From contig PKUA01000006.1 of assembly GCA_002868905.1 (NCBI GenBank), positions 1 to 64,000 on the forward strand: 64,000 bases of DNA, in the 5' to 3' direction. Positions 29,928 to 30,241 of this stretch are shown here, one piece after another (the first letter of the stretch is position 1; each line of letters starts with the position of its first letter). The position numbers and the translations under genes are program-made. Source of the stretch: Desulfuromonas sp. Its GTDB lineage: Bacteria > Desulfobacterota > Desulfuromonadia > Desulfuromonadales > Geothermobacteraceae. The notes beneath the pieces were generated by a model. The model did no database searches and was not told the DNA's origin. It saw only the letters and a list, made by a program, of their open reading frames with translations.

Positions 29928-29966
29928 AAAAAACGCCCCTGCCGATGCAATGATCGGAAGGGGCGT
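29928..29966 (-). terminator. Leader terminator 2 of nifH
   Basis: Arms ACGCCCCT / AGGGGCGT (29933-29940 and 29959-29966) with an inner CCGAT/ATCGG stem, followed by TTTTTT on the minus strand. It lies about 140 bases ahead of the nifH ATG. Confidence 0.9.
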
Positions 29967-29996
29967 CCATGCCCAGCGGCTCAATCGTTGCGCCGC
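29961..29996 (-). promoter_or_regulatory. ANTAR-type hairpin pair 2 in the nifH leader
   Basis: On the minus strand, GGGC-ATGGAC-GCCC (29961-29974) has a hexaloop with A1 and G4, and its 3' arm is shared with terminator 2, so they exclude each other. Upstream, GCGGC/GCCGC (29976-29996) encloses AACGAT with A1 and G4, but the loop is imperfect (one extra base). Confidence 0.7.
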
Positions 29997-30120
29997 GTTC
30001 TCTATGAATTCATGCTCCAGGCGTCACCGGCCCGTCGTTGGCGGGCCCGGTCTCATCGCCTGCACGGCACCACCCTGGTACCGCCGGAATATCGAAAGTT
30101 TGAAGCCTGACCTAACAAAT

Positions 30121-30156
30121 AAAAAAACCCACGGTAGCCAAAAATTCGACCGTGGG
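30121..30156 (-). terminator. Leader terminator 1 of nifH
   Basis: Arms CCCACGGT / ACCGTGGG (30128-30135 and 30149-30156), 13-base loop, then TTTTTTT on the minus strand. It lies only about 75 bases after the sigma-54 promoter. Confidence 0.9.
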
Positions 30157-30200
30157 CTTCATTGCCTAAGCTGTCACCCCCGAGACGTCCATGTATCGGG
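30155..30200 (-). promoter_or_regulatory. ANTAR-type hairpin pair 1 in the nifH leader
   Basis: On the minus strand, CCCGA-T-AC / GT-C-TCGGG encloses hexaloop ATGGAC (30179-30200), and GGC-AATGAA-GCC (30155-30166) follows. Both loops have A1 and G4. The second hairpin shares bases with the 5' arm of terminator 1. Between this unit and the next, 30017-30078 can form a further branched fold (CAGGCG/CGCCTG). The 623 bases from 29793 to 30416 hold no gene. Confidence 0.75.
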
Positions 30201-30226
30201 TGCGGCGTTACGTAGTCTTCCAGTAA

Positions 30227-30241
30227 GCATCAGACGTGCCA
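30227..30241 (-). promoter_or_regulatory. Sigma-54 promoter of nifH
   Basis: Minus strand TGGCAC-GTCTG-ATGC, one mismatch to TGGCAC-N5-TTGC. It is about 435 bases from the nifH ATG, leaving room for the long leader. The flanking sequence resembles that around the promoter at 33166. Confidence 0.85.

Follow-up and report, generated by a model that had tools for sequence, protein, structure and literature searches.

In this Desulfuromonas genome, the nifH leader starts from a sigma-54 promoter and contains, one after the other, two predicted antitermination units of the ANTAR type. This arrangement, proposed in a preliminary description of the same DNA, is confirmed at the sequence level by the anatomy of the leader, by the lack of any full unit in 1700 shuffles, by covariance models and by the leaders of relatives. 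We propose that the leader would act as a serial transcription-antitermination gate read by a single receiver-ANTAR (REC-ANTAR) regulator, a reading to which we assign a probability of approximately 0.7. Its observed part comprises the anatomy, conservation and covariation of the units, their location specificity and the single ANTAR gene of the genome.

Anatomy of the nifH leader

Positions refer to the window, the whole stretch of 64,000 nucleotides that was analysed; the features of the nifH locus are as follows.

28911-29792, minus strand: nifH (nitrogenase iron protein; TIGR01287, 470 bits), with its ATG at 29792
29928-29967, minus strand: terminator 2, with six U (-23.6 kcal/mol)
29961-29974, minus strand: unit 2 P2 hairpin, GGGC[ATGGAC]GCCC, overlapping terminator 2 (from sequence)
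29976-29996, minus strand: unit 2 P1 hairpin, pentaloop variant GCGGC-G-CA[ACGAU]UG-A-GCCGC (R2 48.5 bits; covariation)
30026-30084, minus strand: probable relic of a third (middle) unit (R2 14.7 bits; alignment with the first unit of leader L110)
30121-30160, minus strand: terminator 1, GAAGCCCACGGT ... ACCGTGGGTTTT plus a U run (stem 30160-30124, then seven T; -17.5 kcal/mol)
30155-30166, minus strand: unit 1 P2 hairpin, GGC[AATGAA]GCC, overlapping terminator 1 (from sequence; R1 match)
30179-30200, minus strand: unit 1 P1 hairpin, CCCGATAC[ATGGAC]GTCTCGGG, with the canonical apex AC[RNNGNN]GT (from sequence; aligned with 56 relatives)
30226-30241, minus strand: sigma-54 promoter of nifH, TGGCACGTCTGATGCT, of the GG-N10-GC type (read from sequence)

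Read 5' to 3' on the minus strand, the sigma-54 site is followed by unit 1, about 125 intervening bases, unit 2 and nifH. Each unit consists of a P1 hairpin, a P2 hairpin and a terminator. The claim that P2 of each unit shares bases with the terminator behind it is borne out by the coordinates: P2 of unit 1 spans 30166-30155 with the terminator arm starting at 30160, and P2 of unit 2 spans 29974-29961 with the arm starting at 29967. As isolated elements, the terminators are the more stable partners (-17.5 versus -2.8 kcal/mol for P2 in unit 1, and -23.6 versus -6.1 kcal/mol in unit 2), and P1 of the nifH leader remains folded in the terminated form.

We extracted 98 distinct nifH leaders from one scan of genome contigs, the whole genomes of the order and additional upstream stretches; a sigma-54 site of the GG-N10-GC type lies upstream of nifH in 85 of them. 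When full units were called by fixed criteria (P1, a hexaloop P2 and an overlapping terminator), at least one full unit was found in 66 of these 85 leaders and two in 30, against none in 1700 dinucleotide shuffles derived from the same 85. Two P2-terminator units occur in 43 real leaders and, likewise, in 0 of the 1700 shuffles, which rules out a chance origin for the units. The window leader has two full units by the fixed criteria with none in its own 1500 shuffles, and its fold is more stable than that of shuffles (z -3.1). An Rfam search of the window at gathering thresholds returned tRNA only, with no ANTAR family and no family matching the nifH leader.

Covariance models were built from relatives for unit 1 (R1) and unit 2 (R2), so that training sequences are recovered by construction; model scoring together with alignment of related leaders, the check suggested in the preliminary description, identified a canonical unit 1 with R1 and a distinct unit 2 with R2. 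The R1 match to unit 1, at 30198-30154, scores 33.0 bits. As predicted, unit 1 displays every ANTAR-target feature that can be checked in sequence. The G at position 4 is invariant in both hexaloops across 61 relatives, position 1 is A in 32 and G in 29 for P1 and A in 55 and G in 6 for P2, and the linker of 12 nt (median 10 in relatives) lies within the working range. The AC[RNNGNN]GT form of its P1 matches the apex pairs reported to be important for EutV (PMC3369931).

Covariation of the hexaloop hairpins in relatives had been named beforehand as the test of the proposal; it was looked for and is strong in both units. In alignment A1 (unit 1, 57 sequences), pair counting gives 93.5% paired and a covariation of 0.386, compared with 0.135 +/- 0.013 after shuffling; in alignment A2 (unit 2, 33 sequences), the values are 98.3% and 0.334, compared with 0.125 +/- 0.015. 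The paired percentages are inflated, as hairpins were chosen partly on pairing; such selection does not account for how varied the compensatory changes are. For both units the covariation was reached by no shuffle and collapsed when the partners were slid.

Unit 2, the middle element and their distribution

The preliminary description gave all loops an A at position 1 and a G at position 4, which holds for both loops of unit 1 and for P2 of unit 2; P1 of unit 2, described there as an imperfect AACGAT hexaloop, is instead predicted to form a conserved pentaloop, ANGNN, with a covarying closing pair and a 1-nt linker behind it. In the window, C29990-G29982 and A29989-U29983 fall in columns that are paired among 33 aligned relatives, leaving ACGAU as the loop. 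At the loop-closing pair (columns 8-14), which had no part in hairpin selection, 24 of the 33 sequences have C-G, the other 9 have A-U and none is broken, and RNAalifold gives the same pentaloop structure unprompted. A hexaloop register leaves 9 of the 33 sequences without a closing pair, and the pentaloop was therefore preferred. The general form of this P1 is a five-pair stem, one mismatch position and then C(M)A-N-G-N-N(K)G; within the pentaloop, A and G are invariant across 35 sequences. In one genus (leaders L090-L095), P1 of unit 2 is hexaloop-compatible. In P2 of unit 2, the relatives carry A or G at loop position 1 and an invariant G at position 4.

The unit 2 linker is 1 nt long in the window and has a median of 1 nt in relatives, shorter than the 2-25 nt range of curated ANTAR targets (PMC8164766) and shorter than the linkers that work for eutP (PMC3369931). 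Judged on its predicted P1 loop and on linker length, unit 2 falls outside the definition of an ANTAR target and for these two reasons is not filed as a canonical member. Despite the variant P1, it most likely works like a canonical target. In the structure of EutV with RNA, G4 makes the sole base-specific contact and a methionine may set the loop size (PMC8934654). The five-base loop of unit 2 P1 would keep, in its invariant G, the type of base that makes this contact, and the receiver-ANTAR protein of the genome retains the methionine corresponding to that of EutV in an alignment read by eye.

Between the two units lies a middle element with a pentaloop-type P1 (30084-30064), a degenerate P2, AGGC[GATGAG]ACCG, whose stem is broken in the window, and a strong stem (30051-30026) that lacks a U-tract. 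It provides the second-best R2 match in the window (30084-30043, 14.7 bits, E 0.56), which alone is not significant but lies inside the nifH leader. In leader L110 (genome G005, from another family of the order), two intact pentaloop units stand in series before nifH and a canonical unit 1 is absent; the middle element aligns with the first of these, including TTCCGGC(A/G)G(C/T)ACCA(T/G)GG(C/T)GG and GGCGATGA. Given this alignment, the branched fold of the preliminary description is most plausibly a third unit in decay: the element looks like a relic without a U-tract.

The two-unit leader is conserved in most of the relatives examined. Each of the order's 70 distinct nifH leaders is matched by R1, R2 or both (both in 49, R1 only in 17 and R2 only in 4), and a scan recovered a second P2-terminator unit in six of the 17 R1-only leaders (L084, L085, L097, L122, L129 and L134). 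The second-unit P1 of L084, L085, L122, L129 and L134 is shaped GGCGC-ACYGNNYC-GCGCC or similar and was missed by R2. Matches to R2 extend beyond its training leaders, for example in L017 (49.9 bits), L112 and L117 (44.2 bits each) and L153 (42.8 bits); second terminators are present in these four leaders and in L087 as stems with U-rich stretches, below the scan threshold. Unit 2 persists across many families of the order. Its model is specific to location: the match at unit 2 is the only one in the 3.3 Mb genome, and of its 54 matches in 52 genomes, 52 sit immediately ahead of nifH; the other two are on a contig of G008, a genome in which no nifH was found, and at G111:C90, where the match is weak.

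Among 277 genomes of the class, R2 gave no match outside the order, and R1 gave none when applied to 51 nifH loci from other lineages. On 72 loci that include the Geobacter group, R2 gave one match (17.9 bits, E 0.89), and none of the 21 Geobacter-group nifH leaders has a convincing R2 match. Those leaders mostly carry one P2-terminator unit, with a P2 loop that is mostly AAAGGC, and a few have none by scan. The nifH leader L023, from a Geobacteraceae metagenome-assembled genome, has an AATAC-AAAGATT-GTATT hairpin before its single P2 that is similar to the apex of P1 in unit 2; from this hairpin, the pentaloop variant may also be present in the Geobacter group.

The ANTAR protein and a predicted nitrogen regulon

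The genome contains one ANTAR gene, encoding a receiver-ANTAR response regulator (G000:C38:215210-215368) whose similarity to EutV, and to the PDB 1s8n protein (a putative antiterminator), extends over the length of the protein. Within the order, an ANTAR gene is present in 73 of 76 nifH-bearing genomes versus 33 of 60 genomes without nifH (Fisher p 6e-9); ANTAR-bearing relatives have one such gene or, in a few cases, two. At E <= 0.02, R1 has matches in 82 of the 106 genomes with an ANTAR gene and in 6 of the 30 others. In G080, whose leader L088 has both units, an ANTAR gene was not detected in the fragmented, 99%-complete assembly. By eye, no kinase was recognised beside the ANTAR gene or among the large open reading frames after glnK-amtB, the two loci inspected.

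Two further leaders in the window carry units of this kind.

23735-23895, minus strand: nifB leader, with a sigma-54 site (23895-23880), a canonical unit (23851-23811) and two terminators
46071-46180, plus strand: nifV (homocitrate synthase) leader, with a sigma-54-like GGGCACGCGATTTGCT, P1, P2 and a terminator (R1 21.9 bits)

The nifB unit is the best R1 match of the genome at 35.4 bits, ahead of nifH and the weaker glnK-amtB (23.3 bits) and nifV matches. The second nifB terminator carries gc[AAAGGC]gct; several relatives have the same canonical unit in their nifB leaders, followed in some by a second hairpin resembling a terminator some 50 bases downstream. In the nifV leader, P1 is CCGGC[AAAGTT]GCCGG and P2 is GGC[AACGAA]GCC, followed by the terminator; TIGR02660 is the best family for the first 69 residues of the gene. 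Each of the nifB, nifH, glnK-amtB and nifV units has a sigma-54-like site before it and a terminator after it, and these four form a predicted nitrogen regulon. Other R1 matches in the genome, on contigs C79, C54, C51, C21 and C18 (14-22 bits), were set aside, having no recognisable nitrogen-gene leader context.

In the glnK-amtB leader (L156, 1415-1650; G000:C48, approximately 19.0-19.2 kb), a sigma-54 site is accompanied by a pentaloop hairpin, AUCA-ACGAU-UGAU, and by a P2, GGGC[AACGGC]GCCC, with a terminator. Given this leader, nifH may not be the only gene preceded by the pentaloop form.

A predicted serial gate, its alternatives and its relatives

In the proposed mechanism, RNA polymerase leaving the sigma-54 promoter would encounter first one intrinsic terminator and then the other. 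In the absence of active regulator, the P2 arms would fold into their terminators and transcription would stop before nifH; the active REC-ANTAR regulator would hold P1 and P2 of each unit, so that the terminators would not form and polymerase would reach nifH. Because readthrough would have to succeed twice, the leak would be the product of two leaks, and thus lower, and the response would be steeper than that of one gate. With an assumed leak of 10% per terminator in the absence of regulator and an assumed pass rate of 80% in its presence, purely for illustration, one gate gives an 8-fold response and two give 64-fold, the leak falling from 10% to 1%. We infer the protein binding, the termination and antitermination, the identity of the signal and the multiplicative effect of this model.

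The preliminary description had offered that two units would multiply repression or combine two signals. Multiplied repression is consistent with the single ANTAR gene; the combination of two signals is unsupported in a genome with one ANTAR gene and with relatives so rarely having a second. Two ANTAR proteins serving different units were discarded as a candidate, the genome encoding just one. With one ANTAR protein, two RNA-level signals are unlikely, and serial gating by one regulator is therefore the best reading. A bolder version of it, which we put forward tentatively and consider somewhat doubtful, would make unit 2 a new class of ANTAR target (pentaloop P1, near-zero linker, hexaloop P2) found chiefly before nifH and behind a canonical unit, with the same regulator read twice at different affinity to yield a two-threshold, near-digital nitrogenase switch.

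Several alternative readings were weighed. The leader could be a two-input AND gate, with the ANTAR protein reading unit 1 only and another regulator or a physical cue reading the pentaloop of unit 2; consistent with this, P1 is systematically different in the two units (that of unit 2 has a pentaloop, a short linker and R2 matches almost only at nifH), and unit 1 also occurs at nifB. We regard this as unlikely: P2 of unit 2 is a canonical hexaloop that overlaps its terminator exactly as in unit 1, the L090 genus has its hexaloop-compatible P1, the genome has no second ANTAR gene, and the nifH of L110, whose leader has a pair of pentaloop units but lacks unit 1, would fall outside ANTAR control. 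A sub-variant of the serial gate treats both units as ordinary dual hexaloops, with unit 2 P1 presenting a hexaloop upon protein binding. The invariant G would then occupy position 4 of a hexaloop register (column 11 within columns 8-13), and the A-U pair at the base of the window loop is weak; however, most relatives have C-G at that pair, the exchange between C-G and A-U points to selection for pairing, and the hexaloop register strips 9 of the 33 aligned sequences of a closing pair, making this sub-variant improbable as well.

Two further explanations would give serial gating less weight. Unit 2 and the middle element could be duplicates under weak or no selection, with one functional unit per leader, as the visibly decayed middle unit and the absence of a model-level unit 2 from 17 of the 70 leaders might suggest; set against this are the unbroken C-G/A-U pair of unit 2 (0/33), the terminators behind unit 2 that are present even in relatives where the simple scan missed them, and the retention of unit 2 across many families, and we consider this reading very improbable. 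Equally far-fetched is a decoy RNA, whereby free P1 hairpins from terminated leaders would titrate the ANTAR protein under fixed nitrogen and the serial terminators would mainly serve to make the decoy. Single hexaloops are enough for EutV binding and the eut system has a sequestering EutX RNA (PMC8934654), and P1 is still folded in the terminated form; yet control in cis fully explains both the overlap of P2 with the terminator and the position immediately before nifH, and the activity of a sigma-54 promoter, hence the supply of decoy, should be low when nitrogen is fixed.

Antitermination of nitrogen genes that depends on ANTAR proteins also occurs in the NasR/nasF, AmiR and NasT leaders, with one unit per leader; by their description, these differ from the nifH leader in regulators and genes as well as in having a single unit. 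Nitrogen-fixation genes of Geobacter sulfurreducens are reportedly controlled by sigma-54 promoters and ANTAR antitermination through GnfK/GnfR (Ueki and Lovley, 2010), GnfR being GSU2822. The nifH leader described here would share this logic and differs from Geobacter-group leaders, which have mostly one P2-terminator unit and no convincing R2 match. The GnfK/GnfR system is cited in PMC8164766 and PMC7962754.

Mechanistic precedent for ANTAR antitermination comes from the Enterococcus faecalis eut targets of EutV (PMC3369931, PMC8934654), which likewise have tandem P1 and P2 hairpins, apex A-U/C-G pairs in P1, a purine at loop position 1 with G4, a P2 that overlaps an intrinsic terminator, and a REC-ANTAR regulator, there activated by phosphorylation. 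Unlike the eut system, in which units precede several different genes, the nifH leader places two units and a relic third before one gene, with a pentaloop P1 and 1-nt linker in unit 2 and a promoter of the sigma-54 type. Tandem riboswitches of the pseudo-cooperative class are serial gates for one input that give a steeper response (PMC9481103); they respond to a small-molecule ligand with no protein, whereas the nifH gates are predicted to be protein-controlled, and both arrangements are two on/off gates in series for one input. Neither serial ANTAR units ahead of a single gene nor a target with a pentaloop came up in the papers we searched, a set without the original Geobacter GnfR report, in which an earlier account is possible.

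Taken together, serial protein-controlled antitermination before a single gene would be a natural counterpart of tandem riboswitches, and it predicts, for the costly nitrogenase operon, expression set by the product of two readthroughs and a steeper response. The pentaloop P1 breaks the hexaloop rule used in searches for ANTAR targets, and sites of this kind may escape models based on it. Leaders with a single unit, with two, with a pair of pentaloop units or with the relic of a third make up a natural series, which would provide a comparative set for the gain and loss of gates.
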